From Streptomyces venezuelae (lineage in GTDB: Bacteria; Actinomycetota; Actinomycetes; Streptomycetales; Streptomycetaceae): a DNA stretch of 64,000 nucleotides. The position numbers and the translations under genes were made by a program. The notes under the pieces were generated by a model. It was not told the origin of the DNA. It saw only the letters and a list, made by a program, of their open reading frames with translations, and did no database searches. Of this stretch, positions 40,923-56,758 are shown piece by piece; positions within the stretch are counted from its first letter, which is position 1; each line of letters begins with the position of its first letter. The stretch spans positions 7,068,001 through 7,132,000 of the forward strand of contig NZ_CP029191.1 in the NCBI RefSeq assembly GCF_008642335.1, given 5' to 3'.

Positions 40923-42179
40923 TCAGACCCCGAAGGCGGCCGGATAGGTGATCATGCCCCGCGGCAGTTGTGCGGAATCGTCGGATCCGTGCAGGACCAG
41001 AGCCATCATCGCCTCGTCGGGGACCTCGAAGCCCGGCCGGATTCCGTACCCGGAAGCGGGCTTGAAACCGAACCTCGGATAGTACGAGGGATGCCCGAGC
41101 ACGAGGACGATCCGCTCCCCACGCGCGCGTGCCGCGTCGAGCACGGCACGTACGACCGCCGATCCCGCACCCGCCCCCTGGTGCTCGGGCAGAGTGGCGA
41201 CGGGCGCGAGGGCCAGCGCGGGTGCCCCGCCCACCCGGCACCGGGTGAGCAGCGCGTGAGCGGCGACCGAGCCGTCGGGCGCCTCGGCGACGTACGACAG
41301 ACCGGGAAGCCACGCCTCCGCGTCCGTGCGCAGCGCGTCGACCAGGTCGGCCTCCGCCTCCGTCGCGAAGGCGGCGGCGTTGACGGCGTGCACGGCGGCG
41401 ACGTCGGCCGCGGTCTCCGGGCGGGTGCGCCAGGAGTCCGCGGGCCGCAGCACGTACCCGGTGTAGCCGTACTCGGCGCTGTGCTCGCGCCGCATCGCGA
41501 GCTCCTCGCGGGTGGCGGCGAGCGCCTGCGCCATACCGGGCGCGCCCGGGTCCGCCGCGTCCGCGCGGGCGGCCAGCGGGCCGTAGTACTCGTCCCAGTC
41601 GGACTCGGGCTGCGGGTGCACGCCGAGCACGGAGTACCCGGCGCCGGTCGCCGCCCGGACGTTCTCCTCGCCGGTGCGCAGCGTGTAGTGCCGCTCCCAG
41701 AAGGTACGGGCGGCGGCGGACGGCTCGGCGGCCGTCCACTCGCACTCGGTGAGGACGAGCGTCCCGCCGGGGGCGAGCAGGCGCCGCCAGGAGCGCAGCG
41801 CGGTGTCGAAGCCGATGCTGTACGCCGAGCTCTCCGCCCAGACGACGTCGAAGGAGCCGTCCTGATAGGGGAGTTCGCCCATGTCGGCGTTGACGGCGGT
41901 GATCGATCCGGCGAGCCCGCGGGCGTCGGCCGCCGCGCGGAGCTCGTCGAGGAACGGCTCGTGGAGGTCGACGGCGGTCACCTCGGCGCCGGCCTCGGCG
42001 GCGAGCAGGAGCGCGGAGCGGCCGGGGCCGCAGCCCAGGTCGAGGACGCGCGGCCGCTCGGGCAGCGCACCCACGGAGGCGAGCAGCCGCCGGGTGGTGT
42101 CGTCGGAGCCGGGACCCTGCCGGGGAAGCCCGTGGTGCAGGGCGAAGAAGGCGCGGGAAAGGGAAGCGTTGTCAGTCAA
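40923..42179 (-). CDS. Fusion of SAM methyltransferase and GNAT acetyltransferase
   Basis: A 418-residue two-domain protein. The N-terminal class I methyltransferase (about 1-245) has the SAM motif RVLDLGCGPGRSALLLA, VTAVDLHEPFLDEL and the post-motif DGSFDVVWAESSAYSIG. The C-terminal GNAT domain (about 255-418) has the acetyl-CoA loop LPEHQGAGAGSAVVRAVLD and HPSYYPRFGFKPAS, as in YhbS-like N-acetyltransferases. The substrate is not known, but one target modified twice is a fair guess. The start is TTG 42179 with AAGGA seven bases before it. A short open frame with a good ribosome site lies upstream. Confidence 0.85.
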   Translation of the reverse strand: MTDNASLSRAFFALHHGLPRQGPGSDDTTRRLLASVGALPERPRVLDLGCGPGRSALLLAAEAGAEVTAVDLHEPFLDELRAAADARGLAGSITAVNADMGELPYQDGSFDVVWAESSAYSIGFDTALRSWRRLLAPGGTLVLTECEWTAAEPSAAARTFWERHYTLRTGEENVRAATGAGYSVLGVHPQPESDWDEYYGPLAARADAADPGAPGMAQALAATREELAMRREHSAEYGYTGYVLRPADSWRTRPETAADVAAVHAVNAAAFATEAEADLVDALRTDAEAWLPGLSYVAEAPDGSVAAHALLTRCRVGGAPALALAPVATLPEHQGAGAGSAVVRAVLDAARARGERIVLVLGHPSYYPRFGFKPASGYGIRPGFEVPDEAMMALVLHGSDDSAQLPRGMITYPAAFGV

Positions 42180-43516: not shown

Positions 43517-44500
43517 TCATCCGCGGCGCGCGTCCGGGTGGTGCAGACACCAACCCGCCCACGCCGACTCGACCATCTCGCGCACCCCGCGCCGGGCCGT
43601 CCAGCCGAGCTCCGCCGCCGCGAGACGCGCGTCGGCCACGGCACGCGGCGAGTCGCCCGCGCGCGCCGGCTCGACGAGCGCGGGACGCGTGTCGCCGCTC
43701 ACCTCACCGATGACGGTGATCAGTTCGCGTACGGAAACGCCCTGCCCCCGGCCGATGTTCACCGTCAGATCGCCCTCAACGCCCTCCGCGAGCTTGCGGG
43801 CCGCCGCCAGATGGGCCTCGGCGAGGTCGGAGACGTGGACGTAGTCACGGACGCAGGTGCCGTCCGGCGTCGGGTGGGTGTTGCCGAAGATCCGCGGCGA
43901 CTCGTCGCGGCGCAGCCGGTCGAAGACCATCGGGATCACGTTGAAGACCCCGGTGTCCGCGAGCTCGGGGGCAGCGGCGCCCGCCACGTTGAAGTAGCGC
44001 AGGCACACCGTCCCGATGCCGTGCGCCCGCCCGGCCGCCCGCACCAGCCACTCACCGGCGAGCTTCGTCTCGCCGTAGGGGCTGACCGGAACGCACGGCG
44101 CGTCCTCGCCCACGAGCTCCGCGTCCGGCGGGTTGCCGTACACCGCGGCCGACGAGGAGAAGACGAAGCGCTTGATGCCGGCCTCGGCCACCGCGTCGAG
44201 CAGCGTCGTGAGGCCGCCCACGTTCTCCCGGTAGTAGCGCAGCGGCTGCTCGACCGACTCCCCGACCTGCTTGCGGGCCGCGAGATGCACCACACCGGTG
44301 ACGCCGTACTCGGCGAAGACCCGGCGCAACAGGTCCCCGTCCAGCGAGGACCCCTTCACCAGGGGCATGTCCGCGGGCAGCCGCTGCGGGACCCCGGACG
44401 AGACGTCGTCCAGGACGACGACGTCCTCACCGGCACCGGCCATGACCCGCGCCACATGTGCCCCGATGTAACCCGCTCCGCCTGTGATCAGCCATGTCAT
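43517..44500 (-). CDS. galE: UDP-glucose 4-epimerase
   Basis: A 327-residue short-chain dehydrogenase-type epimerase. It has GGAGYIGAHV at the N-terminus for NAD, the Ser of FVFSSSAAVYG and the catalytic Tyr/Lys in SPYGETK, and the C-terminal VRDYVHVSDLAEAHL block typical of GalE. It interconverts UDP-glucose and UDP-galactose (or GlcNAc/GalNAc forms). It is divergent from the CDP-alcohol phosphotransferase/exporter operon and may supply its sugar. GAT-like neighbours of a galactose operon (galK, galT) are absent, which supports a biosynthetic role. Confidence 0.93.
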   Translation of the reverse strand: MTWLITGGAGYIGAHVARVMAGAGEDVVVLDDVSSGVPQRLPADMPLVKGSSLDGDLLRRVFAEYGVTGVVHLAARKQVGESVEQPLRYYRENVGGLTTLLDAVAEAGIKRFVFSSSAAVYGNPPDAELVGEDAPCVPVSPYGETKLAGEWLVRAAGRAHGIGTVCLRYFNVAGAAAPELADTGVFNVIPMVFDRLRRDESPRIFGNTHPTPDGTCVRDYVHVSDLAEAHLAAARKLAEGVEGDLTVNIGRGQGVSVRELITVIGEVSGDTRPALVEPARAGDSPRAVADARLAAAELGWTARRGVREMVESAWAGWCLHHPDARRG

Positions 44501-44801
44501 GGGCGCCCACCCTAAGCGACCCCCCGGGCGCGGCCCCGCACGGGCATGTGACCGTCAATCGGGCAAGCCGGGCACCGACCGGGGCGCGGTTTGTGGGCGC
44601 GGCCCCCCATCCACCATGATGATCGCGAAGCCGAGGCCCTCGCAGGCCGCCCTTATGGGGGCGTGAACGGGTGATGAACGCCCGCTTCCCATCATCCGAT
44701 AGCCTCAGCCGACGTGCCGCCCGGCCGCCATGGGCCCGGGGGCGCTCCCCTTACGCATGTGCCCGGCGCGAGCCGCGCCGGTACTCAAGGAGTGAGTTCG
44801 T
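44501..44801. promoter_or_regulatory. Divergent control region: galE and the CDP-alcohol operon
   Basis: This 301-base stretch holds no gene I can support. A -10-like TAGCCT lies at 44700-44705 with an expected start near 44713, giving a leader of roughly 90 bases. The leader has a perfect 8-bp hairpin, CCGGCGCG/CGCGCCGG with a three-base loop, at 44763-44781. It ends five bases before the ribosome site AAGGAG (44787-44792), so it could influence translation of the CTG-started gene. Confidence 0.45.
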
Positions 44802-46607
44802 CTGTCGACCGCCATCCTCACCGGACAGCCGGTCCCCGGGTCGCCGCTCGAAGGCGATCTGCGGTCCCTCGGCTTCGACGTGCGGGTCGCCTCCGACGCG
44901 GCGGACGCCGAGTCGCTGCTCGCGGCCGTGCCCGGCGACCAGCGGGTCGCGGTCGTCGACGCACGCTTCGTCGGACACGTCCACGCGCTGCGCCTCGCCC
45001 TCACCGACCCCCGCTTCGCCGCCTCCGCGGTGACCGGCGCCGTCGCGGCCAAGCCGGAGGCCCGCACGGAGCTGACGCGCGCGCTGCGGGCGACCGCCAC
45101 CACCACCGGCGGCGTCGTCACCCACGACGCGCTCCCCGACGACATCGCCGCGGCCATGGAGTCCGGCGCGACGGACGTGCACCGCCCCGACCTCGGCACC
45201 CTCGTCGCCACCGTGCCCGACGACCCCCAGGCGCGGAACGAGGCACGCCAGGCCGTCGCCGCCGTCGACGACGAGGCCGTACGCCTGCGCACCGCGGTGA
45301 AGTCGCGGGACGGGTTCTTCACGACGTACTGCATCTCCCCGTACTCGCGCTACATCGCCCGCTGGTGCGCCCGCCGTGGCCTCACCCCGAACCAGGTCAC
45401 CACCGCGTCGCTGCTCACCGCCCTGATCGCGGCGGGCTGCGCGGCGACCGGGACGCGCGGCGGCTTCGTCGCGGCGGGCGTGCTGCTGCTCCTCTCCTTC
45501 GTCCTCGACTGCACGGACGGGCAGCTCGCCCGCTACTCCCTGCAGTACTCGACGCTCGGCGCCTGGCTGGACGCGACGTTCGACCGCGCCAAGGAGTACG
45601 CGTACTACGCGGGCCTCGCGCTCGGCGCGGCCAACGCGAACGGAGACGACGTCTGGGCGCTGGCCCTCGGCGCCATGGTCCTCCAGACCTGTCGTCACGT
45701 CGTCGACTTCTCGTTCAACGAGGCGAATCACGACGCGACCGCCAACACCAGCCCCACCGCGGCCCTTTCGGACAAGCTCGACAGCGTCGGGTGGACGGTC
45801 TGGGTGCGCCGGATGATAGTGCTGCCCATCGGCGAGCGCTGGGCGATGATCGCCGTGCTCACCGCGGTCACCACCCCGCGCGTCACCCTCGTCGTCCTGC
45901 TCATCGGCTGCGCCCTCGCCGCCTGTTACACGACCGCCGGACGCGTCCTGCGCTCGCTGACCCGCAAGGCGACCCGCACCGACCGCGCCGCCCAGGCACT
46001 CGGCGACCTCGCCGACAACGGCACGCTCGCCTCGTCCTTCGCCGCCCTCGGCCGCCGCGCGCGCTTTCTGCCCGCGCCCGTGTTCGCCTTCGTCGGCGGC
46101 GCCGCGGTCGTCGCGGTCGCCGCGTTCACCTCCTACGGCAGCCCGTGGGTCGTCGTCGCCGCGGTCGTGTACGTCGCCCTCTCCGGCCTCGCCCTCGCGC
46201 GGCCCCTCAAGGCCCCCCTGGACTGGCTGGTGCCGCCGTTCTTCCGCGCTGCCGAGTACGGCACGGTCCTGGTCCTCGCGGCGAAAGCCGATGTGAACGG
46301 GGCGCTGCCCGCGGCTTTCGGGCTGGTGTCGGCGGTCGCCTACCATCACTACGACACGGTGTACCGCATCAAGGGCGGCGCCGGTGCGCCCCCGCGCCGG
46401 CTGGTGCGGGCGATCGGCGGCCAAGAAGGCAGGACCCTCGTGGTCGCGCTGGCCGCCACCGTGCTGTCCACCAACGATTTCACCGTCGCGCTCACGGCAC
46501 TCGCCGTGGCCGTGGCACTCGTGGTGCTCGTCGAGAGCATCTGCTTCTGGGTCGCCGCCGAGAAAAAGGGCGCACCCGCCGTACACGATGAAGGAGAACC
46601 CGCATGA
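44802..46607 (+). CDS. Large CDP-alcohol phosphotransferase membrane protein (DUF5941-like)
   Basis: A predicted 601-residue protein. The N-terminal ~165 residues are soluble and nucleotidyltransferase-like in look (AILTGQPVPGSPLEG). The middle is a CDP-alcohol phosphotransferase with the full motif D236, D239-G, AR, G, D257 and D261 in the segment from DCTDGQLAR. The last 250 residues are multi-helical and match the part called DUF5941. It would join an alcohol phosphate from a CDP donor to an acceptor. The start is unusual: AAGGAG (44787-44792) points to a CTG at 44802, as no ATG, GTG or TTG follows in this frame until GTG 44880, which would cut the domain. First gene of the operon. Confidence 0.8.
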   Translation: MSTAILTGQPVPGSPLEGDLRSLGFDVRVASDAADAESLLAAVPGDQRVAVVDARFVGHVHALRLALTDPRFAASAVTGAVAAKPEARTELTRALRATATTTGGVVTHDALPDDIAAAMESGATDVHRPDLGTLVATVPDDPQARNEARQAVAAVDDEAVRLRTAVKSRDGFFTTYCISPYSRYIARWCARRGLTPNQVTTASLLTALIAAGCAATGTRGGFVAAGVLLLLSFVLDCTDGQLARYSLQYSTLGAWLDATFDRAKEYAYYAGLALGAANANGDDVWALALGAMVLQTCRHVVDFSFNEANHDATANTSPTAALSDKLDSVGWTVWVRRMIVLPIGERWAMIAVLTAVTTPRVTLVVLLIGCALAACYTTAGRVLRSLTRKATRTDRAAQALGDLADNGTLASSFAALGRRARFLPAPVFAFVGGAAVVAVAAFTSYGSPWVVVAAVVYVALSGLALARPLKAPLDWLVPPFFRAAEYGTVLVLAAKADVNGALPAAFGLVSAVAYHHYDTVYRIKGGAGAPPRRLVRAIGGQEGRTLVVALAATVLSTNDFTVALTALAVAVALVVLVESICFWVAAEKKGAPAVHDEGEPA

Positions 46608-47341
46608 TCGGCCTCGTCCTTGCGGCAGGCGCCGGACGGCGTCTGCGTCCCTACACGGACACCCTGCCCAAGGCCCTGGTGCCCGTCGATGGTGAGACCA
46701 CCATCCTCGACCTGACGCTCGGCAACTTCGCCGAGATCGGTCTCACCGAGGTCGCGATCATCGTCGGCTACAAGAAGGAAGCCGTCTACGACCGCAAGGC
46801 GGACCTGGAGGCGAAGTACGGCCTCAAGCTGACGCTCATCGACAACGACAAGGCCGAGGAGTGGAACAACGCCTACTCCCTGTGGTGCGGGCGTGACGCC
46901 ATCAAGCACGACGTGATCCTCGCCAACGGCGACACCGTGCACCCGGTCTCCGTCGAGAAGACGCTGCTCGCCGCCCGCGGCAACGGCCAGAAGATCATCC
47001 TCGCCCTCGACACGGTGAAGCAGCTCGCCGACGAGGAGATGAAGGTCATCGTGGACGACGCCAAGGGTGTCCAGAAGATCACCAAGCTGATGGACCCGGC
47101 GACGGCCACCGGTGAGTACATCGGCGTCACCCTCATCGAGGGCTCCGCCGCCGACGAGCTCGCCGACGCCCTGAAGACCACCTTCGAGCGCGACCCCGAC
47201 CTCTACTACGAGGACGGCTACCAGGAGCTCGTCAACCGCGGCTTCAAGGTCGACGTGGCCCCGATCGGCGACGTCAAGTGGGTCGAGATCGACAACCACG
47301 ACGACCTCGCCAAGGGCCGGGAGATCGCGTGCCAGTACTGA
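46604..47341 (+). CDS. Sugar- or alcohol-phosphate nucleotidyltransferase
   Basis: A 245-residue cytoplasmic nucleotidyltransferase of the GT-A-like NTP transferase fold. The signature LAAGAGRRLRPYTDTLPKALVPV binds the nucleotide and the metal-binding Asp is in ILANGDTVH. WNNAYSLWCGRD resembles CTP:phosphocholine cytidylyltransferases of the LicC type, and the VKWVEIDNHDDLAKG tail is the matching metal site. In this operon it probably makes a CDP-alcohol for the two CDP-alcohol phosphotransferases. Its start overlaps the preceding stop by four bases (ATGA). Confidence 0.88.
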   Translation: MIGLVLAAGAGRRLRPYTDTLPKALVPVDGETTILDLTLGNFAEIGLTEVAIIVGYKKEAVYDRKADLEAKYGLKLTLIDNDKAEEWNNAYSLWCGRDAIKHDVILANGDTVHPVSVEKTLLAARGNGQKIILALDTVKQLADEEMKVIVDDAKGVQKITKLMDPATATGEYIGVTLIEGSAADELADALKTTFERDPDLYYEDGYQELVNRGFKVDVAPIGDVKWVEIDNHDDLAKGREIACQY

Positions 47342-48396
47342 CGAGGCTCATCCCCTCGCCGGTCGTCGTCGACATCCGGCCGGGGGCGCTCGACGACCTG
47401 GCCGGTGTCCTCGCCGACCAGCGGATCTGCTCGTCGACCGGCAAGCTCGCCATCGCCATCAGCGGCGGCTCGGGCGCGGTGCTCCGCGAGCGGCTGATGC
47501 CCTCGCTGGGCGGCGCGGAGTGGTTCGAGGTCGGTGGCGGCACGCTCGACGACGCCATCAAGCTCGGCGAGGACATCCGCAAGTCCGGCCGGTACGACGC
47601 GGTCGTCGGCCTCGGCGGCGGCAAGATCATCGACTGCGCCAAGTTCGCCGCGGCGCGCGTGGGTCTGCCGCTGGTCGCCGTCGCGACGAACCTGTCGCAC
47701 GACGGTCTCTGCTCGCCGGTCGCGACGCTCGACAACGACGCGGGCCGCGGCTCGTACGGCGTGCCGAACCCCATCGCGGTCGTCATCGACCTCGACGTGA
47801 TCCGTGAGGCACCCGTCCGCTTCGTCCGCTCCGGCATCGGCGACGCGCTGTCCAACATCTCCGCCATCCGGGACTGGGAGCTCGCCGCCCGCGAGCGCGG
47901 CGAGGACATCGACGGCCTCGCGGCCGCCATGGCCCGCCAGGCCGGCGAGGCCGTGCTCCGCCACCCCGGCGGCGTCGGCGACGACGGCTTCCTCCAGGTC
48001 CTGGCCGAGGGACTGGTCCTCACCGGCATCGCCATGTCGATCTCGGGCGACTCCCGCCCGGCGTCCGGCGCCTGCCACGAGATCAACCACGCCTTCGACC
48101 TGCTCTTCCCCAAGCGCGCCGCCAGCCACGGCGAGCAGTGCGGCCTGGGCGCGGCCTTCGCGATGCACCTGCGCGGTGCCCACGAGGAGTCGGCGTTCAT
48201 GGCCCAGGTGCTGCGCCGCCACGGCCTGCCCGTGCTGCCGGAGGAGATCGGTTTCTCCGTGGACGAGTTCGTGAAGGTCGTGGAGTTCGCTCCGCAGACC
48301 CGCCCGGGCCGCTACACGATCCTCGAACACCTCGACCTGTCCACCGACCAGATCAGGGACGCATACGCCGACTATGCAAAAGCCATCGGTAGCTGA
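47329..48396 (+). CDS. sn-Glycerol-1-phosphate dehydrogenase-like enzyme
   Basis: A 355-residue metal-dependent dehydrogenase of the glycerol-1-phosphate dehydrogenase branch (archaeal EgsA, Bacillus AraM) of the dehydroquinate synthase/iron-ADH fold. Support: GGGKIIDCAKFAAARVGLP, VATNLSHDGLCSP, and metal ligands Asp172 in GIGDALSN, His250 in SGACHEIN and His267 in ASHGEQCG. The enzyme would reduce dihydroxyacetone phosphate to sn-glycerol-1-phosphate, the archaeal stereoisomer, rare in bacteria. The GTG at 47329 is 13 bases inside the previous gene, with GGGAG upstream. A related alcohol dehydrogenase activity cannot be excluded. Confidence 0.85.
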   Translation: MPVLTRLIPSPVVVDIRPGALDDLAGVLADQRICSSTGKLAIAISGGSGAVLRERLMPSLGGAEWFEVGGGTLDDAIKLGEDIRKSGRYDAVVGLGGGKIIDCAKFAAARVGLPLVAVATNLSHDGLCSPVATLDNDAGRGSYGVPNPIAVVIDLDVIREAPVRFVRSGIGDALSNISAIRDWELAARERGEDIDGLAAAMARQAGEAVLRHPGGVGDDGFLQVLAEGLVLTGIAMSISGDSRPASGACHEINHAFDLLFPKRAASHGEQCGLGAAFAMHLRGAHEESAFMAQVLRRHGLPVLPEEIGFSVDEFVKVVEFAPQTRPGRYTILEHLDLSTDQIRDAYADYAKAIGS

Positions 48397-49153
48397 GCTC
48401 CGCCCGGTTGTTCACCCCCCGGGGGTGAAGGACCGGCGCAGCGGCGAACACTGGGCCGGCCGGCTCTACATGCGCGAGGTCTCCCTGCGCATCGACCGGC
48501 ACCTGGTGAACACGCGGGTCACGCCCAACCAGCTGACCTACGTGATGACCGTCGCCGGCGCCCTCGCCGCCCCGGCCCTGCTGGTGCCCGGCATCACGGG
48601 CGCCGTCCTCGGCGTGGTCGCGGTCCAGCTCTACCTGCTGCTCGACTGCGTGGACGGCGAGATCGCCCGCTGGAAGAAGCAGTACTCGATGGCCGGGGTC
48701 TACCTGGACCGGGTCGCCGCCTACCTGTGCGACGCCGCGGTCCTGGTCGGCTTCGGTCTGCGCGCCGCCGACATATGGGGCTCGGGACGCATCGACTGGC
48801 TGTGGGCCTTCCTCGGCACCCTGGCCGCGCTCGGCGCGATCCTGATCAAGGCCGAGACCGACCTCGTCGGCGTGGCCCGTCACCAGACGGGCAAGGAGCC
48901 GGTCAAGGAGTCGGCGGCCGAGCCGCGCTCCTCCGGCATGGCGCTGGCCCGCAGGGCCGCCGCCGCGCTGAAGTTCCACCGGCTCATCCTCGGGGTCGAG
49001 GCGTCCCTGCTGATCCTCGTCATCGCGTTCGTCGACCAGGCGCGCGGCGACCTGTTCTTCTCGCGCCTCGGCGTGGCGGTGCTCGCGGGCATCGCGATGC
49101 TGCAGACCCTGCTCCACCTCGTGTCCATCCTCGTATCGAGCAGGTTGAAGTGA
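48374..49153 (+). CDS. CDP-alcohol phosphotransferase-like membrane protein, fourth motif Asp missing
   Basis: A 259-residue protein with about six helices. The CDP-alcohol phosphotransferase motif is present in part: D91, D94-G95, A98-R99, G108 and D112, but the fourth Asp, normally four residues after D112, is Ala116 (GVYLDRVAAYL). That Asp is taken as the catalytic base in this family. The protein may be inactive, use another base, or serve as a partner of the complete enzyme at 44802. It overlaps the dehydrogenase gene by 23 bases, so the coupling is tight. Confidence 0.82.
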   Translation: MQKPSVAELRPVVHPPGVKDRRSGEHWAGRLYMREVSLRIDRHLVNTRVTPNQLTYVMTVAGALAAPALLVPGITGAVLGVVAVQLYLLLDCVDGEIARWKKQYSMAGVYLDRVAAYLCDAAVLVGFGLRAADIWGSGRIDWLWAFLGTLAALGAILIKAETDLVGVARHQTGKEPVKESAAEPRSSGMALARRAAAALKFHRLILGVEASLLILVIAFVDQARGDLFFSRLGVAVLAGIAMLQTLLHLVSILVSSRLK

Positions 49154-50061
49154 GCACCCCCAGCACCCCGAGCCCCGCGGCGGAGAAGCTGAAGGTCGGC
49201 GCCGTCATCATCACGATGGGCAACCGGCCGCAGGAGCTGCGCGCCCTCCTCGACTCGGTCGCCAAGCAGGAGGGCGACCCGGTCGAGGTGGTCGTGGTCG
49301 GCAACGGCGCCCCCGTGCCCGAGGTCCCCGCGGGCGTGCGCACCGTCGAACTGCCTGAGAACCTCGGCATCCCCGGTGGCCGCAACGTCGGCATCGAGGC
49401 CTTCGGGCCCGGCGGCACCGACGTCGACATCCTGCTCTTCCTGGACGACGACGGCCTGCTCGCCACCCTGGACACGGCGCGGCTCTGCCGCGAGGCGTTC
49501 GCCGCCGACCCGGAGCTCGGCATCATCAGCTTCCGCATCGCGGACCCGGACACGGGGGAGACCCAGCGGCGCCACGTGCCGCGGCTGCGGGCCTCCGACC
49601 CGATGCGCTCCTCGCGCGTGACGACCTTCCTCGGCGGCGCCAACGCCGTCCGCACGAAGGTCCTCGCCGAGGTCGGCGGGCTGCCCGGCGAGTTCTTCTA
49701 CGCCCACGAGGAGACCGACCTCGCCTGGCGCGCGCTCGACGCGGGCTGGATGATCGACTACCGCTCCGACATGGTCCTGTTCCACCCCACGACGGCCCCC
49801 TCGCGGCACGCGGTCTACCACCGGATGGTGGCCCGCAACCGCGTCTGGCTGGCCCGTCGCAACCTCCCCGCGCCGCTGGTCCCGGTCTACCTCGGTGTCT
49901 GGATGCTCCTCACCCTCGCCCGACGCCCCTCGGGCCCGGCCCTGAAGGCCTGGTTCGGCGGCTTCAAGGAGGGCTGGACCACGCCCTGCGGGCCTCGCAG
50001 GCCCATGAAGTGGCGTACGGTGTGGCGGCTGACCCGACTGGGCCGACCTCCCGTCATCTGA
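49150..50061 (+). CDS. Family 2 glycosyltransferase
   Basis: A 303-residue GT-A glycosyltransferase. VGAVIITMGNRPQELRALLDSV opens the fold, FLDDDG is the DxD metal motif, LGGANAVRTKVLAEVGG and the acid pair in HEETDLAWRALDAG are the usual acceptor-side motifs. It ends in an amphipathic or single membrane helix near VPVYLGVWMLLTLA. It probably adds a sugar (perhaps from UDP-galactose, given galE) to the exported molecule. GTG 49150 overlaps the preceding stop (GTGA). Confidence 0.9.
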   Translation: MSTPSTPSPAAEKLKVGAVIITMGNRPQELRALLDSVAKQEGDPVEVVVVGNGAPVPEVPAGVRTVELPENLGIPGGRNVGIEAFGPGGTDVDILLFLDDDGLLATLDTARLCREAFAADPELGIISFRIADPDTGETQRRHVPRLRASDPMRSSRVTTFLGGANAVRTKVLAEVGGLPGEFFYAHEETDLAWRALDAGWMIDYRSDMVLFHPTTAPSRHAVYHRMVARNRVWLARRNLPAPLVPVYLGVWMLLTLARRPSGPALKAWFGGFKEGWTTPCGPRRPMKWRTVWRLTRLGRPPVI

Positions 50062-50157
50062 CAAGCTCGGGTCTGAGAGCATTCGGGCCATACCCCGGTC
50101 CCTGGCCCACGCCTACGCCCGACCGGCTGCGCTTTTCGAAGACGAAAGTTTCCACTC

Positions 50158-51105
50158 GTGAGTGAGACAACGCATGACGGCGGAGTCGCGGTGACAGCAT
50201 CACCGTCGACTCCGTCGCCCGATGACGGGCTCTCCCGGGCCGAACTCGCCGCCAAGTACGGTCTGACCGTCAGCGGCGCCCGCCCCGGACTTTTCGAGTA
50301 CGTCCGCCAGCTCTGGGGACGGCGCCACTTCATCCTTGCCTTCTCCCAGGCGAAGCTGACCGCCCAGTACAGCCAGGCCAAGCTCGGCCAGCTGTGGCAG
50401 GTGGCGACGCCGCTGCTGAACGCGGCGGTCTACTTCTTCATCTTCGGGCTGCTGCTCGGCGCCCGTGAGGGCATCCCGCACGAGATCTACGTGCCGTTCC
50501 TGGTGACGGGTGTCTTCGTCTTCACGTTCACGCAGAGCTCGGTCATGGCGGGCGTGCGGGCGATCTCCGGCAACCTCGGCCTGGTCAGGGCCCTGCACTT
50601 CCCGCGGGCCTCGCTGCCGATCTCCTTCGCGCTGCAGCAGCTCCAGCAGCTGCTCTTCTCGATGATCGTGCTCGTCGTGATCATGTGCGCGTTCGGGATC
50701 TTCCCCGCCCTGTCCTGGCTGCTCGTCCTGCCCGCGCTGGTCCTGCAGTTCGTCTTCAACATGGGCCTGGCGCTGATCTTCGCCCGGATGGGCAGCAAGA
50801 CGCCCGACCTGGCGCAGCTCATGCCGTTCGTGATGCGGACCTGGATGTACGCCTCGGGCGTCATGTTCAGCATCCCCGCGATGCTCGCGACCAAGAAGGA
50901 CGTGCCCGCCTGGGTCGGGGACGTGCTCCAGTGGAATCCGGCCTCCATCTACATGGACCTGATCCGCTTCGCCATGATCGACAAGTACGACTCCTCGTAC
51001 CTGCCCCCGCACGTGTGGGCCTTCGCGGTCGGCTGGGCCGTGGTGATCGGCGCGGTCGGGTTCGTGTACTTCTGGAAGGCTGAGGAGCGGTACGGCCGTG
51101 GCTGA
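50158..51105 (+). CDS. ABC-2 type permease, Wzm/TagG-like polysaccharide exporter
   Basis: A 315-residue membrane protein with six helices and a soluble N-terminal 60 residues. The AKLTAQYSQAKLGQLWQVATPLLNAAVYFFIF opening, the periplasmic-side LGLVRALHFPRASLPIS and the late WNPASIYMDLIRF are those of teichoic-acid and O-antigen ABC exporters (TagG, Wzm, RfbD-like). It begins 96 bases after the glycosyltransferase gene and overlaps the ATPase gene by eight bases. Confidence 0.9.
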   Translation: MSETTHDGGVAVTASPSTPSPDDGLSRAELAAKYGLTVSGARPGLFEYVRQLWGRRHFILAFSQAKLTAQYSQAKLGQLWQVATPLLNAAVYFFIFGLLLGAREGIPHEIYVPFLVTGVFVFTFTQSSVMAGVRAISGNLGLVRALHFPRASLPISFALQQLQQLLFSMIVLVVIMCAFGIFPALSWLLVLPALVLQFVFNMGLALIFARMGSKTPDLAQLMPFVMRTWMYASGVMFSIPAMLATKKDVPAWVGDVLQWNPASIYMDLIRFAMIDKYDSSYLPPHVWAFAVGWAVVIGAVGFVYFWKAEERYGRG

Positions 51106-51904
51106 CGACAAGACCCCCGAGAAGGGCGACGCGAACGCCGGCAAGGGGCACATCCCCACCGTCATCGCCGACGAGCTGCACATCGTCTACCGCGTCAACG
51201 GCGCGAAGACGGGCAAGGGCAGCGCCACCTCCGCCCTGAGCCGCATCCTCAGGCGCGGCGAGGAGCGCGGGGTGCGCAAGGTGCACGCCGTGCGCGGCGT
51301 CAGCTTCACCGCCTACCGCGGCGAGGCCATCGGCCTCATCGGCTCCAACGGCTCCGGCAAGTCGACCCTGCTCCGCGCCATCGCGGGCCTGCTCCCCGCT
51401 GAGCGGGGCAAGGTCTACACCGACGGCCAGCCCTCGCTGCTCGGCGTCAACGCGGCCCTGATGAACGACCTGACGGGTGAGCGCAACGTCATACTCGGCG
51501 GGCTCGCGATGGGCATGTCCCGCGAGCAGATCCGGGAGCGCTACCAGGAGATCGTCGACTTCTCGGGCATCAACGAGAAGGGCGACTTCATCACCCTTCC
51601 GATGCGCACCTACTCCTCCGGCATGGCGGCCCGTCTCCGCTTCTCCATCGCGGCGGCCAAGGACCACGACGTCCTGATGATCGACGAGGCCCTGGCCACC
51701 GGTGACCGCAAGTTCCAGAAGCGCTCCGAGGCCCGCATCCGCGAGCTCCGCAAGGAGGCCGGCACGGTCTTCCTGGTCAGCCACAACAACAAGTCGATCC
51801 GCGACACGTGCGACCGCGTGCTGTGGCTGGAACGCGGCGAGCTGCGCATGGACGGGCCGACCGACGAGGTCATAAAGGAGTACGAGAAGTTCACGGGCAA
51901 GTAG
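51098..51904 (+). CDS. ABC transporter ATPase, Wzt/TagH-like
   Basis: A 268-residue ATPase partner of the permease. Walker A is GSNGSGKST (about 82-90), the signature is YSSGMAARL (172-180) and Walker B is VLMIDEA (192-198), followed by the switch His in LVSHNNKS. The ADELHIVYRV start is typical of polysaccharide exporters. It lacks the extra C-terminal sugar-binding domain of the long Wzt proteins, so recognition is likely of a lipid-linked head rather than of a capped chain end. GAGGAG precedes the GTG. Confidence 0.92.
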   Translation: MADDKTPEKGDANAGKGHIPTVIADELHIVYRVNGAKTGKGSATSALSRILRRGEERGVRKVHAVRGVSFTAYRGEAIGLIGSNGSGKSTLLRAIAGLLPAERGKVYTDGQPSLLGVNAALMNDLTGERNVILGGLAMGMSREQIRERYQEIVDFSGINEKGDFITLPMRTYSSGMAARLRFSIAAAKDHDVLMIDEALATGDRKFQKRSEARIRELRKEAGTVFLVSHNNKSIRDTCDRVLWLERGELRMDGPTDEVIKEYEKFTGK

Positions 51905-52211: not shown

Positions 52212-52250
52212 GTATTGGGTCGGCAGTGTAGAACGGGAGATGTGACGGCA

Positions 52251-53147
52251 ATGGCTACGGATGATCTCCAGCTCCGCGATGCTTCCGCCGTCCTCGCCAA
52301 GGCCGCGGACGAGAACTTTCCGGTCGCGCCCTTCTTCCTCCCCCGGGCCTGGCGCGACGACCTCATGGCCGTCTACGGCGTCGTCCGCCTCATCGACGAC
52401 ATCGGCGACGGCGACCTGGCCCCCGGCGCCGGCCACGCCCGCCACCTCGGGCTCGACGCCGACACGGACGAACCCCTGCCGCTCCTGGACGCCGTCGAGG
52501 CCGACCTGGACAAGGTCTTCGCCGGCGCCGAGCCCGGCCACCCGCTGGTGCGGGCGCTGCGCCCGGCCGCCGAACGCGGAACCCTGACGGCCGCCCCCTT
52601 CCTGGCCCTGATCGAGGCCAACCGCCAGGACCAGGTGATCACGCGCTACGAGACGTACGACGACCTCGTCGCGTACTGCGCGCTCTCCGCCAACCCCATC
52701 GGCCGCCTCGTCCTGGCCATCACGGGGACGGAGACCCCGGAGCGCGTCCGCCGCTCGGACGCTGTCTGCACCGGCCTGCAGATCGTCGAGCACATCCAGG
52801 ACGTCGCCGAAGACCTGCGGCGCGGCCGCATCTACCTGCCTGTCGAGGACATGAAGCGGTTCCACGTGAGTGAGTCAGATCTGGCCCTGCCGACGGCGGG
52901 CGCATCGGTGCGCGCCCTGGTCGCATTCGAAGTGGAACGCGCCCGCGGCCTGCTGAATGAAGGCACCCCCCTGGTGGGTAGCGTCCACGGCAGGCTGAAG
53001 CTGCTGCTGGCCGGTTTCGTGGCAGGGGGGAGGGCGGCCACCCGGGCGATCGTCACCGCCGGGTACGACGTCCTGCCCGGGCCGCCCAAGCCGACCAAGC
53101 CGCGTCTGCTGCGCGAGACGGGTGCAGTACTGCGAGGAGAGGGGTGA
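52251..53147 (+). CDS. hpnC: Squalene synthase HpnC (hydroxysqualene-forming)
   Basis: A 298-residue trans-prenyltransferase of the squalene/phytoene synthase family. The first Asp-rich motif is LIDDIGDGD (Asp49, Asp50, Asp53) and the second is in EHIQDVAEDLRRGRIYLP. In the bacterial three-step route HpnD makes presqualene diphosphate from two FPP, HpnC turns this to hydroxysqualene and HpnE reduces it to squalene. The ATG at 52251 is used, with GGGAGA 10 bases upstream; GTG 52242 is an alternative. First gene of the hopanoid operon; its end overlaps hpnD (GTGA). Confidence 0.93.
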   Translation: MATDDLQLRDASAVLAKAADENFPVAPFFLPRAWRDDLMAVYGVVRLIDDIGDGDLAPGAGHARHLGLDADTDEPLPLLDAVEADLDKVFAGAEPGHPLVRALRPAAERGTLTAAPFLALIEANRQDQVITRYETYDDLVAYCALSANPIGRLVLAITGTETPERVRRSDAVCTGLQIVEHIQDVAEDLRRGRIYLPVEDMKRFHVSESDLALPTAGASVRALVAFEVERARGLLNEGTPLVGSVHGRLKLLLAGFVAGGRAATRAIVTAGYDVLPGPPKPTKPRLLRETGAVLRGEG

Positions 53148-54094
53148 GCCGGGCCGTGGAGTCGGATCAGCACGTATCCGCGTCGGTGCTCGCCGCCTAC
53201 AGCTACTGCGAGGCCGTGACCGGCAGCCAGGCGCGCAACTTCGCGTACGGCATCAGACTGCTGCCGACGCCCAAGCGCCGGGCGATGTCCGCGCTCTACG
53301 CCCTCTCCCGGCGGGTCGACGACATCGGCGACGGCGAGCTCGCCCTGGACGTCAAGGCGCAGCGGCTCGATGACACCCGCGCGCTGGTCGCCCGGATCCG
53401 CGCGGGCGAGGTGCACGAGGACGACACCGACCCCGTGGCGGTCGCCCTCGCCCACGCCGCCGCGCACTTCCCCATCCCGCTGGAAGGCCTCGACGAACTC
53501 ATCGACGGCGTCCTGAAGGACGTACGTGGTGAGACGTACGAGACGTGGGAGGACCTCAAGGTCTACTGCCGCTGCGTCGCCGGGGCCATCGGGCGGCTCT
53601 CGCTCGGCGTGTTCGGCACGGAGCGGGGGGCGCTCCACGCCGAACGTGCGCCCGAGTACGCGGACACGCTCGGTCTCGCGCTCCAACTGACCAACATTCT
53701 CCGGGACGTTCGCGAGGACGCCCTGGACGGGCGGACCTATCTGCCCGCCGACGACCTCGCCAAGTTCGGCTGCTCCGCCGGGTTCGCGGGCTCCGAACCG
53801 CCCGCCGGAGCCGACTTCGCCGGCCTCGTCCACTTCGAGGTGCGCCGCGCGCGTGCCCTGTTCGCCGAGGGCTACCGCCTGCTGCCCATGCTGGACCGGC
53901 GCAGCGGCGCCTGCGTGGCCGCCATGGCCGGCATCTACCGACGTCTCCTCGACCGCATCGAGCGCGAGCCGGAGGCGGTCCTGCGCGGCCGCGTCTCGCT
54001 CCCCGGGCGCGAGAAGGCGTACGTCGCCGTGCGCGGACTGTCCGGTCTCGACGCGCGGAACGTGTCACGACAGACCGTCCGGAGGCGTGTGTGA
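53144..54094 (+). CDS. hpnD: Presqualene diphosphate synthase HpnD
   Basis: A 316-residue squalene/phytoene synthase-family protein with RRVDDIGDGE (Asp59, Asp60, Asp63) and QLTNILRDVREDALDGRTYLP, both Asp-rich motifs that bind the diphosphates through magnesium, and the YCEAVTGSQARNFAYGIRLLP start typical for HpnD. It condenses two farnesyl diphosphates head to head into presqualene diphosphate. GAGGAGAGGG precedes the GTG at 53144. Its stop codon overlaps the start of a small frame by one base (TGATG). Confidence 0.94.
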   Translation: MSRAVESDQHVSASVLAAYSYCEAVTGSQARNFAYGIRLLPTPKRRAMSALYALSRRVDDIGDGELALDVKAQRLDDTRALVARIRAGEVHEDDTDPVAVALAHAAAHFPIPLEGLDELIDGVLKDVRGETYETWEDLKVYCRCVAGAIGRLSLGVFGTERGALHAERAPEYADTLGLALQLTNILRDVREDALDGRTYLPADDLAKFGCSAGFAGSEPPAGADFAGLVHFEVRRARALFAEGYRLLPMLDRRSGACVAAMAGIYRRLLDRIEREPEAVLRGRVSLPGREKAYVAVRGLSGLDARNVSRQTVRRRV

Positions 54095-54207
54095 TGCGCA
54101 TCCGGAGCGATCGTGGGGCAGTTGGGGCAACGTTCGCAAAGCGGCGGGCAACCCTCCGCTCCAAGGTCGCGTCCCAGACTGCAACGGCCGAAGGGGTGGG
54201 TGCATGA
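54094..54207 (+). CDS. 37-residue small protein in the hopanoid operon
   Basis: A small frame wedged exactly between hpnD and hpnE. Its ATG shares a base with the hpnD stop (TGATG), its own stop overlaps the hpnE start by four bases (ATGA), and GGAGG lies eight bases before the ATG. This double coupling is strong evidence that ribosomes pass through it. The product is basic, with the core KRRATLRSKVASQTATA, and resembles short Streptomyces proteins grouped as DUF6380, though I say this from memory of their pattern. It may be a real peptide or only a coupling device for HpnE. Confidence 0.65.
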   Translation: MRIRSDRGAVGATFAKRRATLRSKVASQTATAEGVGA

Positions 54208-55628
54208 CGAGGGAAGACATGCAGCCCGAGGGGCTGACCGAGGACGCCGAAGGCCGCTCCGCAGGGGCGGCCGCCGTAGTGGTCGGCGGCGGCCTCGCGG
54301 GCGTCACCGCCGCACTCGCGCTCGCCGACGCGGGCCTGCGCGTGACGCTGCTCGAAGGACGGCCGCGGCTCGGCGGCCTCGCGTTCTCCTTCCGGCGCGG
54401 CGCCCTGACCGTCGACAACGGCCAGCACGTCTATCTGCGCTGCTGCACCGCCTACCGCTGGTTCCTCGACCGCATCGACGGCACACACCTCGCACCCGTG
54501 CAGGAACGTCTCGACGTGCCCGTCCTCGACGCCGACCGCAACCGGCTCGGGCGCCTCAGGCGCACCGCGCTCCCCGTGCCGCTGCACCTCGCGGCGAGCC
54601 TCGCCACCTACCCGCACCTGTCGGCCGTCGAGCGCGCCAAGGTGGGCCGCGCGGCGCTCGCCCTCAAGGGACTCGACCCGGCCGACCCCGTGCTCGACGG
54701 TCAGAACTTCGGCAGCTGGCTCGCCAGGAACGGTCAGTCCGCGCGCGCCATCGAGGCCCTCTGGGATCTCGTGGGCGTCGCGACGCTCAACGCCACCGCG
54801 GGCGACGCCTCGCTCGGGCTCGCCGCGATGGTGTTCAAGACCGGGCTGCTCTCCGAACCGGGCGCCGCCGACATCGGCTGGTCCCGGGTGCCCCTCGGTG
54901 ATCTCCACGACACGCTGGCCCGCAAGGCGCTCGACGCCGCGGGAGTACGTACGGAACTAAAGGCACGCGTCACCTCCATCTCCCGTACGGACAACGGCGG
55001 TTGGCGCGTGGAGGTTCCCGGCGGGACCATCGAGGCGGAAACCGTCGTGCTCGCCGTGCCGCAGCACGAGACGCACGACCTCCTTCCCGACGGCGCCCTC
55101 GACCAGCCCGACCGGCTGCTCGACATCGACACCGCGCCGATCCTGAACATCCACGTCGTGTACGACAGGAAGGTCCTGAAGCGGCCCTTCTTCGCCGCCA
55201 TCGGCACGCCGGTGCAGTGGGTCTTCGACCGGACCGAGGCCTCCGGACTGACCGAGGGGCAGTACCTGGCGCTCTCGCAGTCGAACGCGCGGGACGAGAT
55301 CGACGCGCCCGTCGCCGCCCTGCGAGAGCGCTATCTGCCCGAGCTGGAGCGGCTGCTGCCAGCGGCCCACGGCGCCGAGGTACGGGACTTCTTCGTCACC
55401 CGCGAGCGCACGGCGACCTTCGCGCCCACCCCCGGTGTCGGCAGGCTCCGCCCCGGTGCCCGCACGAAGGCCCGCGGCCTGTACCTCGCGGGCGCGTGGA
55501 CCGCCACCGGGTGGCCCGCGACCATGGAGGGCGCCGTACGCAGCGGCATCAGCGCGGCCGAAGCCGCCCTCTCCACCCTCGACCGCCCCCGTGATCACCT
55601 CTTCGCATTCGAGGAGGCGGCGGCGTGA
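54204..55628 (+). CDS. hpnE: Hydroxysqualene dehydroxylase HpnE
   Basis: A 474-residue FAD amine-oxidase-fold enzyme. The dinucleotide-binding motif is VVVGGGLAGVTAALALADAG near residue 28, followed by EGRPRLGGLAFSF; the C-terminal FAD segment is LYLAGAWTATGWPATMEGAVRSG. It reduces hydroxysqualene to squalene, the last step of the HpnCDE route. A 25-residue polar N-terminus precedes the fold. The start is coupled to the small frame before it, and the stop overlaps a GTG (55625) in frame with the next gene. Confidence 0.93.
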   Translation: MTREDMQPEGLTEDAEGRSAGAAAVVVGGGLAGVTAALALADAGLRVTLLEGRPRLGGLAFSFRRGALTVDNGQHVYLRCCTAYRWFLDRIDGTHLAPVQERLDVPVLDADRNRLGRLRRTALPVPLHLAASLATYPHLSAVERAKVGRAALALKGLDPADPVLDGQNFGSWLARNGQSARAIEALWDLVGVATLNATAGDASLGLAAMVFKTGLLSEPGAADIGWSRVPLGDLHDTLARKALDAAGVRTELKARVTSISRTDNGGWRVEVPGGTIEAETVVLAVPQHETHDLLPDGALDQPDRLLDIDTAPILNIHVVYDRKVLKRPFFAAIGTPVQWVFDRTEASGLTEGQYLALSQSNARDEIDAPVAALRERYLPELERLLPAAHGAEVRDFFVTRERTATFAPTPGVGRLRPGARTKARGLYLAGAWTATGWPATMEGAVRSGISAAEAALSTLDRPRDHLFAFEEAAA

Positions 55629-55687
55629 AGCTCGACCTTCTGGGGTCAGGTCCCCAGCGAAACAGCACCGGAACAAGAGGAGAAACT

Positions 55688-56758
55688 GTGCCGACTGTGC
55701 CCTCGGCCGAGAAAACGGCTGCCGACACGGTGGACGTGACCTCACTGCTCGAGCAAGGAAGGACGCTGGCCACCCCGGTGCTGCGGGCCGCGGTGGACCG
55801 TCTCGCGCCGCCCATGGACACCGTGGCCGCCTACCACTTCGGCTGGATCGACGCGGAGGGCAACCCCTCCGACGGCGACGGCGGCAAGGCCGTGCGGCCC
55901 GCGCTCGCCCTGCTCTCCGCCGAGGCCGCGGGCGCGCCCCCCGAGGTCGGCGTCCCCGGCGCGGTCGCCGTCGAGCTCGTGCACAACTTCTCGCTGCTGC
56001 ACGACGACCTGATGGACGGCGACGAGCAGCGCCGCCACCGCGACACCGTGTGGAAGGTGCACGGCCCCGCGCAGGCCATCCTCGTCGGCGACGCACTCTT
56101 CGCGCTCGGCAACGAGATCCTCCTCGAACTCGGCACCGTCGAGGCGGGCCGCGCCACCCGCCGCCTCATCACCGCCACCCGCGCCCTGATCGACGGCCAG
56201 GCCCAGGACATCAGCTACGAACACCGCGACCGGGTCACCGTCGAGGAGTGCCTGGAGATGGAGGGCAAGAAGACCGGCGCCCTCCTCGCCTGCGCGGTCT
56301 CCATCGGTGCCGTACTGGGCGGCGCGGACGACCACACCGCCGACACCCTGGAGAAGTACGGGTACCACCTCGGCCTCGCCTTCCAGGCCGTGGACGATCT
56401 GCTCGGCATCTGGGGCGACCCCGAGGCCACCGGCAAGCAGACGTGGAGCGATCTGCGCCAGCGCAAGAAGTCGCTGCCCGTGGTGGCCGCCCTGGCCGCG
56501 GGCGGTCCCGCGTCCGAGCGGCTCGGCGAGCTGCTCACCGCCGACTCCAAGAGCAGCGACTTCGAGAACTTCTCCGAGGACGAGTTCGCCGCGCGCGCCG
56601 CCCTCATCGAGGAGGCCGGCGGCCGCGAGTGGACCGCCAAGGAGGCAAGGCGCCAGCACGCCATCGCCATCGAGGCCCTGGACCACGTCCAGATGCCGGA
56701 CCGTATCCGGGCGCAGCTCGTCGCGCTCGCCGACTTCGTCGTCGTACGAGAGAGATGA
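55688..56758 (+). CDS. Polyprenyl (farnesyl) diphosphate synthase
   Basis: A 356-residue all-helical prenyltransferase. The first Asp-rich motif DDLMD lies at residues 106-110, with DEQRR after it, and the second, DDLLGIWGD, starts at 236. GGKAVRPAL is the usual basic diphosphate-binding segment. It elongates DMAPP/GPP with IPP, most probably to FPP for HpnD. The GTG at 55688 is chosen as GAGGAG lies five bases upstream; a GTG at 55625 overlapping the hpnE stop would add 21 poorly conserved-looking residues. Confidence 0.92.
   Translation: MPTVPSAEKTAADTVDVTSLLEQGRTLATPVLRAAVDRLAPPMDTVAAYHFGWIDAEGNPSDGDGGKAVRPALALLSAEAAGAPPEVGVPGAVAVELVHNFSLLHDDLMDGDEQRRHRDTVWKVHGPAQAILVGDALFALGNEILLELGTVEAGRATRRLITATRALIDGQAQDISYEHRDRVTVEECLEMEGKKTGALLACAVSIGAVLGGADDHTADTLEKYGYHLGLAFQAVDDLLGIWGDPEATGKQTWSDLRQRKKSLPVVAALAAGGPASERLGELLTADSKSSDFENFSEDEFAARAALIEEAGGREWTAKEARRQHAIAIEALDHVQMPDRIRAQLVALADFVVVRER

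Follow-up and report, generated by a model that had tools for sequence, protein, structure and literature searches.

Within the 64,000-nucleotide stretch of Streptomyces venezuelae DNA analysed here (the window), galE, encoding UDP-glucose 4-epimerase (43517..44500, minus strand; TIGR01179, 308.9 bits against a cut-off of 262.3), diverges from seven genes that all lie on the plus strand, an arrangement already described in the initial annotation and borne out by the coordinates. The seven begin with capA (44802..46607; PF01066 plus PF19365, DUF5941), ntp for a LicC/IPCT-type cytidylyltransferase (46604..47341; PF00483, NTP_transferase), egsA for an EgsA/AraM-type sn-glycerol-1-phosphate (G1P) dehydrogenase (47335..48396; Fe-ADH_2, with PRK00843 as the best NCBIfam model), capB for a second CDP-alcohol phosphotransferase-like membrane protein (48374..49153; PF01066) and gt2 for a GT2 glycosyltransferase (49150..50061; PF00535, Glycos_transf_2). 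After a gap of 96 bases follow tagG for a TagG/Wzm-like ABC-2 permease (50158..51105; PF01061, ABC2_membrane) and tagH for a TagH/Wzt-like ATPase (51098..51904; ABC ATPase domain, PRK13546 TagH), which overlap by 8 bases. The names capA, capB and ntp are coined in this study. The overlaps among the first five genes, previously given as 4-23 bases, are exactly 4 (capA/ntp), 7 (ntp/egsA), 23 (egsA/capB) and 4 (capB/gt2), and the Pfam and NCBIfam profile calls agree with the domains assigned earlier. A promoter and terminator scan of the locus found no sigma-70-type promoter; its five terminator-like matches, against 1.8 expected, were not used as evidence. Since galE is not a constant neighbour (it was not found next to the operon in, for example, L029, L082, L089 and L097), it is regarded as an optional part.

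The co-occurrence of these genes, which the initial annotation had proposed to check, was examined in 92 loci, one of them entered twice (L022 and L034 are one contig). ntp is present in 91 of the 92, with egsA at most 200 bases downstream on the same strand in 89 of the 91, and the egsA-capB spacing is at most 200 bases in 59 of 60 loci. The genes thus stay together in related genomes, and their association is not due to chance. CapA, GT2, TagGH and galE vary between lineages; the core is kept in distant Actinomycetota with no hopanoid genes in reach, and some relatives' loci adjoin LCP ligases, TagF-type polymerases, priming transferases and TagGH. In the genome sample, ntp occurs in all 28 Streptomyces. 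DUF5941 occurs in only 13 of the 296 genomes of the phylum sample, and therefore the fused form of CapA is not widespread. Synteny of the gene set in Streptomyces is already in print (PMC13118837, 2026), the only description of the set that our literature search found; no stated function for it was found, nor any paper mentioning DUF5941 or one joining lipoteichoic acid, CDP-alcohol phosphatidyltransferase and Actinobacteria. The accessible parts of PMC9385802, PMC7300013, PMC11481543 and PMC8262930 contain nothing decisive on the operon.

Against NCBIfam, EgsA matches PRK00843 (G1P dehydrogenase) with 229.9 bits, the next model, a glycerol dehydrogenase, scoring 89.4; as 229.9 bits is below the curated equivalog cut-off of 413 bits, the protein is labelled EgsA-type rather than an equivalog. 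Solved G1P dehydrogenases and 3ce9 are its best matches in the PDB, with 144.7 bits for the Methanocaldococcus jannaschii enzyme (4rgq). D170 is kept in 89 of 90 sequences and H248 and H265 in 90 of 90; the three residues, aligned with 4rgq, are of the Asp/His/His metal-ligand type. The earlier assignment as an EgsA/AraM-like dehydrogenase is thereby upheld. The best PDB match of NTP is LicC (1jyk, 4.8e-14), and the nucleotidyltransferase signature is present in 91 of 91 NTP sequences. NTP is proposed to be a CTP:sn-glycerol-1-phosphate cytidylyltransferase. It counts against this role that glycerol-1-phosphate was not a substrate of CpgD, another LicC-like cytidylyltransferase, as far as the accessible part of PMC12275187 goes. 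Other authors have assigned actinobacterial G1P dehydrogenases to the EgsA/AraM tree (PMC5059525, in the part available).

CapA had been called a CDP-alcohol phosphotransferase fusion; it is one, and the fused partners can now be named as a degenerate IspD/IPCT-like cytidylyltransferase domain (approximately residues 1-155) and DUF5941 (about 392-591), on either side of the CDP-alcohol phosphotransferase domain (about 166-391). Its probable start is the CTG at 44802, a CTG or TTG start behind a GGAG site being conserved. The nucleotidyltransferase signature was found in the N-terminal domain in none of 54 CapA loci (a few cut by contig ends), and the DUF5941 profile gave no PDB match up to E 10. 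The phosphotransferase motif D1xxD2G1xxAR...G2xxxD3xxxD4 is intact in the window and in 49 of 52 entries; in L024 the Ala of the motif is replaced by Ser, the L037 protein is degenerate, and L083 did not parse. In Foldseek, the structure model of CapA (pLDDT 90.0) matches best Archaeoglobus IPCT-DIPPS and AF2299, in which a cytidylyltransferase-like domain is likewise fused to a CDP-alcohol phosphotransferase; unlike these, CapA lacks the nucleotidyltransferase signature at its N-terminus, is accompanied by a separate NTP gene and carries the extra DUF5941. The fold also resembles choline/ethanolamine phosphotransferases, a likeness that may be confined to the 6-TM core; identity to eukaryotic CHPT1/CEPT1 of the Kennedy pathway is 10-13%, and fold alone shows no function.

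In CapB, whose closest named homologues are from Streptomyces (up to 97%), the putative catalytic base D4 is Ala in the window protein and is replaced in all 60 homologues, by His in 39 and by Ala in 21, the Ala occurring only in loci with CapA (21/21). In MtPIPS, a D4N change nearly abolished activity and spared binding, according to the accessible part of PMC4634129. Both of the CDP-alcohol phosphotransferases originally reported are present, but it had been missed that CapB is without the putative catalytic Asp of the family; the two are therefore not equivalent, and a pair of equivalent enzymes is rejected. The idea that CapB is simply dead is not accepted either, as ntp-egsA-capB-gt2-tagGH, with His at D4 of CapB, occur without CapA in eight genomes of Kitasatospora, Streptacidiphilus and Streptomyces. 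A genome-wide search of these eight gave only generic CDP-alcohol phosphotransferase matches of up to 41 bits, so that CapA is dispensable in them. Ten CapB loci were tallied as CapA-less, the two besides these eight being L105 and L107; the latter is cut by the contig edge, where the end of its CapA is still present.

The DDD motif of GT2 is well kept (in an alignment of 61 sequences, D99, D100 and D101 are each found in 97% or more). The best NCBIfam models for TagG (galactan Wzm, 62.6 bits) and TagH (PRK13546 TagH, 182.8 bits) score below their cut-offs of 380 and 320, respectively. The operon's TagH and its counterpart in the canonical teichoic (Glyphos_transf) cluster of the same genome share 82% identity, which supports the TagGH-type exporter suggested earlier and points to a teichoic-type one.

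How far the operon is tied to teichoic acid synthesis was assessed in a sample of 296 class genomes, 72 with NTP (one match, G074 at 75.9 bits, was dropped from 73) and 224 without. Strong TagF/TagB-domain (Glyphos_transf) matches occur in 69 of the 72 against 47 of the 224, uncorrected for phylogeny and at E<1e-15, a cut set after seeing the scores that dropped 24 weaker genomes from 140 and left 116; with all 140 counted, the fractions are 69/72 and 71/224, again uncorrected. TagD (TIGR01518) was found in none of the 72 NTP genomes at a cut of 100 bits, also set after seeing the scores and uncorrected for phylogeny; by genus this exclusion is not significant (p 0.19), and a lower cut would break it. 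Some TIGR01518 match is present in 15 of 28 Streptomyces, ten of these at 58-68 bits and not counted as TagD, and weak matches occur in 12 of 14 control genomes. Of the 116 genomes with strong Glyphos_transf matches, 33 lack both NTP and TagD, so other supplies exist. The window's genome has seven TagF-type (PF04464) domains, none of them among the operon's eight proteins; TIGR01518 gave no match in it at E<=1, and no LtaS-like protein was found there, the single PF00884 match being, as judged by eye, an exported arylsulfatase-like protein. As NTP tracks TagF-type polymerases and, at the 100-bit cut, is not found together with TagD in the sample, NTP and EgsA are the probable CDP-glycerol supply for teichoic acid generally, a wider role missed by the initial annotation, which had tied CDP-1-glycerol to the operon's own product. 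Feeding TagF is not the sole use of the operon, since all genes from capA to tagH are present in Streptomyces G526, which gave no Glyphos_transf match, and TagF feeding as the explanation of everything is rejected on that ground. NTP is also present with no Glyphos_transf match in G389 and G443.

We propose, with about even confidence, that the operon both provides CDP-(sn-1)-glycerol and consumes it in making a teichoic-type envelope polymer. EgsA would reduce DHAP to sn-glycerol-1-phosphate, as its family and conserved residues suggest, and NTP would join this to CTP, so that the two would substitute for G3P dehydrogenase and TagD. CapA, with its intact motif and a fold like that of enzymes putting a soluble CDP-alcohol on a lipid, would then use soluble CDP-glycerol to load phosphoglycerol onto a membrane acceptor, with release of CMP; the likeliest acceptor is a glycolipid or a polyprenyl-linked primer. 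CapB may assist, extend or modify, and its base could be His or another acidic residue; GT2 would glycosylate the product, and TagGH, whose TagH is a close paralogue of that in the canonical teichoic cluster, would export it. The TagF-type polymerases of the genome probably draw on this CDP-glycerol pool as well, in which case lipoteichoic and wall teichoic acids would have one structure and one stereochemistry, sn-Gro-1-P as in firmicute lipoteichoic acid (PMC7086022). Several findings given above weigh against this proposal: the operon or NTP without Glyphos_transf in G526, G389 and G443, the genomes that do without CapA, the degenerate CapA of L037, the missing catalytic Asp in 60 of 60 CapB proteins, the 33 Glyphos_transf genomes with neither supply gene, and the weaker TIGR01518 matches in Streptomyces. 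Of the initial annotation, the gene set, its conservation, the EgsA type, the CDP-alcohol route and the exporter are supported, whereas the stereochemistry and product stay inference.

Like the Bacillus TagD-TagB-TagF-TagGH pathway, the proposed route has a CDP-polyol donor, phosphodiester chemistry, a glycosyltransferase, a TagGH-type exporter and, near some relatives, LCP ligases. It differs in having a G1P dehydrogenase and LicC-type cytidylyltransferase in a genome with no TagD match, CDP-alcohol phosphotransferases in place of Glyphos_transf within the operon, and a predicted opposite glycerol stereochemistry. With LtaS-type lipoteichoic acid of Firmicutes it would share the sn-Gro-1-P backbone, but LtaS acts by extracellular transfer from phosphatidylglycerol, whereas a cytoplasmic CDP route with ABC export is proposed here. 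The AraM/PcrB heptaprenylglyceryl phosphate route of B. subtilis likewise uses a bacterial EgsA/AraM-family G1P dehydrogenase; unlike it, the operon has no PcrB gene, and G1P would be activated by CTP.

Actinobacterial lipoteichoic acid exists though LtaS is missing, its route being unknown according to the accessible parts of PMC3196553 and PMC3089915. The operon is a concrete candidate for such a route, a link that had been missed, and could explain Streptomyces teichoic acids made without the usual enzymes. More tentatively, and somewhat less likely than not, a major branch of Actinobacteria may make its teichoic acids from CDP-sn-1-glycerol, with TagD replaced by a G1P dehydrogenase of archaeal type and a cytidylyltransferase of the LicC type. 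Both the wall and the lipoteichoic acids of this branch would then be mirror images of classical Bacillus wall teichoic acid, and a CapA/CapB-type pair, one member lacking the usual catalytic Asp, would prime lipoteichoic acid or polymerise it in the absence of LtaS. If this stereochemistry is true, the "archaeal" form of glycerol phosphate would be common in a plentiful bacterial wall polymer instead of being rare, and the absence of G1P from the bacterial cytosol, an assumption in the discussion of PMC5974469, would need revision. The operon also provides genes with which the cell wall of antibiotic producers could be studied.

Could a different CDP-polyol, CDP-ribitol or CDP-arabinitol for instance, be what the dehydrogenase and NTP produce, the two acting as a non-homologous TarJ/TarI, so that the polymer is not of glycerol? 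The TagF-type family also includes ribitol polymerases, EgsA scores under the G1P dehydrogenase cut-off, and NTP and TagD are both missing from 33 strong Glyphos_transf genomes. This reading is nevertheless unlikely, since EgsA scores far higher with the G1P dehydrogenase model than with any other NCBIfam model of the superfamily, solved G1P dehydrogenases and 3ce9 match it best, actinobacterial G1P dehydrogenases sit in the EgsA/AraM tree, and one Streptomyces lipoteichoic acid structure is polyglycerolphosphate (PMC3196553, in the part available). A phosphoglycerol lipid or glycophospholipid instead of a polymer, for example phosphatidylglycerol from CDP-glycerol and diacylglycerol or a glycerophospho-glycolipid, would suit the resemblance of CapA to choline/ethanolamine phosphotransferases, enzymes that act on diacylglycerol with a soluble CDP donor, and the retention of the operon in G526; it is rather unlikely in view of the TagH paralogy, the LCP, TagF-type and priming transferase genes beside relatives, and the NTP-Glyphos_transf association.

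Wall teichoic acid might also be the only product, EgsA and NTP feeding TagF while CapA and CapB make the linkage unit, a TagB-like priming on undecaprenyl-PP-disaccharide. CapA adjoins a TagF-type gene in four loci, and in L159 ntp-egsA, a GlfT2-like gene and TagGH form one line of genes with no CDP-alcohol phosphotransferase between; the complete operon of G526 and the presence of its own exporter, though the canonical cluster has one, make this quite improbable. A hopanoid-linked product is suggested by the hopanoid genes that the operon abuts in Streptomyces, where hpnC follows tagH in 8 of 8 loci looked at (about 3.6 kb away in L028). This is highly improbable and is rejected: outside Streptomyces, hopene cyclase shows no association (7/44 genomes with NTP against 36/224 without; odds ratio 0.99), tagG and hpn genes are both missing from the surroundings of 31 of the 60 CapB loci, as far as these could be read, and Streptomyces G568 has capA to tagH complete with no hpnC/D/E in the stretch and no cyclase match. 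As a separate observation, G517 and G560 gave no cyclase match, yet hpnC/D/E are kept in both.

The operon in the window is a candidate for teichoic-acid-type biosynthesis. Among 296 genomes sampled from the class, strong matches to Glyphos_transf (PF04464), the TagF/TagB-type polymerase domain, occur in 116, and orthologues of NTP, the LicC/IPCT-type cytidylyltransferase of the operon, in 72 (at least 325 bits). In counts uncorrected for phylogeny, strong Glyphos_transf is found in 69 of the 72 NTP genomes as against 47 of the 224 others, and outside Streptomyces, likewise uncorrected, in 42/44 with NTP and 47/224 without it; by genus, the association is 28/29 versus 23/85. TagD, the glycerol-3-phosphate cytidylyltransferase scored by TIGR01518, reaches 100 bits in 22 genomes, none of which has NTP, an exclusion that is not significant when taken alone by genus (p 0.19). 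A lower TagD cut would add ten Streptomyces genomes with matches of 58–68 bits; such weaker matches are read as a different protein family, because four TagD-bearing genomes (G394, G402, G529 and G562) have an additional match of 62–68 bits.

The genome of the window itself (G000) has seven Glyphos_transf domains; no match to TagD at E ≤ 1 and no LtaS-like protein were found in it. Its two TagH paralogues, 82% identical, are encoded in the operon (51098–51904) and in a canonical teichoic cluster (G000:C1:3072994–3073761), and no cytidylyltransferase was seen when ten proteins from the latter and from the regions flanking it were examined.

In Bacillus, according to the pertinent part of PMC7086022, wall teichoic acid consists of sn-Gro-3-P supplied by the CDP-glycerol of TagD, and lipoteichoic acid of sn-Gro-1-P supplied by phosphatidylglycerol. 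Passages of two further papers (PMC3196553, PMC3089915) state that actinobacterial lipoteichoic acid exists, that clear LtaS orthologues are missing and that in S. hygroscopicus it is very close to wall teichoic acid; a shared pathway using tagB/tagF genes was proposed. To this proposal we add a CDP-sn-1-glycerol pool that would serve both teichoic acids. Such a putative pool would fit the actinobacterial lipoteichoic acid data, and TagF-type polymerases are reported to accept the sn-1 enantiomer in vitro (PMC5974469, in part). CapB, the second CDP-alcohol phosphotransferase-like protein of the operon, is present in Thermobifida fusca, a lipoteichoic producer per passages of the cited literature, in a search for CapB alone. 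Against this interpretation count a genome with capA to tagH complete and without Glyphos_transf (G526), and the rejection of glycerol-1-phosphate by CpgD, also a LicC-like cytidylyltransferase (PMC12275187, in the passage concerned). The Streptomyces synteny of araM, tagG, tagH and crtB with GT2 and CDP-alcohol genes was printed in 2026 under the label of teichoic acid biosynthesis, with no mechanism in the relevant passage (PMC13118837), and no functional account of the gene set was found in the literature searched, the results of which were covered in part.

On this 8.05-Mb Streptomyces chromosome, galE, the seven genes of the operon and their overlaps are as the initial annotation described them. 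CapA, a degenerate cytidylyltransferase fused to a CDP-alcohol phosphotransferase and DUF5941, most likely starts from the CTG at 44802. Among 15 homologous loci of Streptomyces, 11 have CTG and 4 have TTG as the equivalent codon, with a GGAG site upstream, and 13 have an in-frame stop just 5′ of it. A protein encoded nearby on the minus strand (40923–42179) fuses a methyltransferase domain with a GNAT acetyltransferase domain.

The 92 loci compared, one contig being counted twice, comprise 12 that were fetched and 80 from GTDB contigs, the best among the matches listed when ranked by similarity to NTP. In this set, so selected, ntp is present in 91 loci, with egsA, for the EgsA/AraM-type dehydrogenase, next in 89, capB in 60 and gt2 in the same direction as capB in 59. 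In Streptosporangiales and Nitriliruptorales the core is present with no hopanoid genes within reach; CapA and DUF5941 matches lie in separate stretches in most of these loci, and were read as separate frames in L022–L024 and L044. Micromonosporaceae loci retain ntp-egsA; the gene after this pair in L035 and L038 encodes another kind of CDP-alcohol phosphotransferase, whose motif is canonical.

Downstream of the operon are hopanoid-type genes (52215–56758; two of the squalene/phytoene synthase family, one of the amine oxidase family and a polyprenyl synthetase) and then a hopene cyclase gene (about 57007–58860). Such genes stay near the operon in Streptomyces and show no association outside the genus, where hopene cyclase, used as a control, is found in 7/44 genomes with NTP versus 36/224 without it (odds ratio 0.99, phylogeny uncorrected). 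In one Streptomyces locus (L158, in G568), capA to tagH are complete, but the stretch showed no hpnC/D/E and the genome gave no match to hopene cyclase.

The fourth Asp of the CDP-alcohol phosphotransferase motif (D4) is a putative catalytic base; the D93N variant of MtPIPS lost almost all activity but could still bind (PMC4634129, in part). In CapB it is replaced by His in 39 and by Ala in 21 of 60 entries (59 distinct loci), and all 60 carry an acidic residue, Asp or Glu, four places after it. The CapA motif is complete in 49 of 52 entries, the exceptions being L024 (Ser replacing the motif Ala), L037 (degenerate) and L083 (unparsed). CapA is absent from eight Kitasatospora, Streptacidiphilus and Streptomyces genomes, which gave generic phosphotransferase matches only (best, 41 bits) and retain ntp-egsA-capB-gt2-tagGH. 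CapB is not obviously inactive, because these eight genomes keep it, with His at the D4 position; Ala occurs only in loci where CapA is present too.

In relatives, CapA-DUF5941 adjoins a GT2-Glyphos_transf (TagF-type) protein in three Micromonosporaceae genomes, where it lies away from ntp-egsA (L146, L147 and L148), and likewise in L025; exporter genes were recognised nearby in L025 and L146, the permease alone in L147 and neither in L148. Other neighbours were uninformative, as in L022 (sulfotransferases and GT4) and in L081 and L160 (signalling proteins). LCP ligases occur near L023 and L044, TagGH and a priming sugar transferase near L024, which also matches Glyphos_transf weakly, at 24.5 bits (cut-off, 22.1). 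In L159, ntp-egsA is arranged in a row with TagGH and a GlfT2-like protein. A second CapA and DUF5941 pair in Nonomuraea (L149, G308:C188) has a GH16-CBM6 protein and an undecaprenyl diphosphate synthase in its vicinity, and in Allonocardiopsis (L151, G307:C9) two further CDP-alcohol phosphotransferases are adjacent, with a GalE-like protein nearby.
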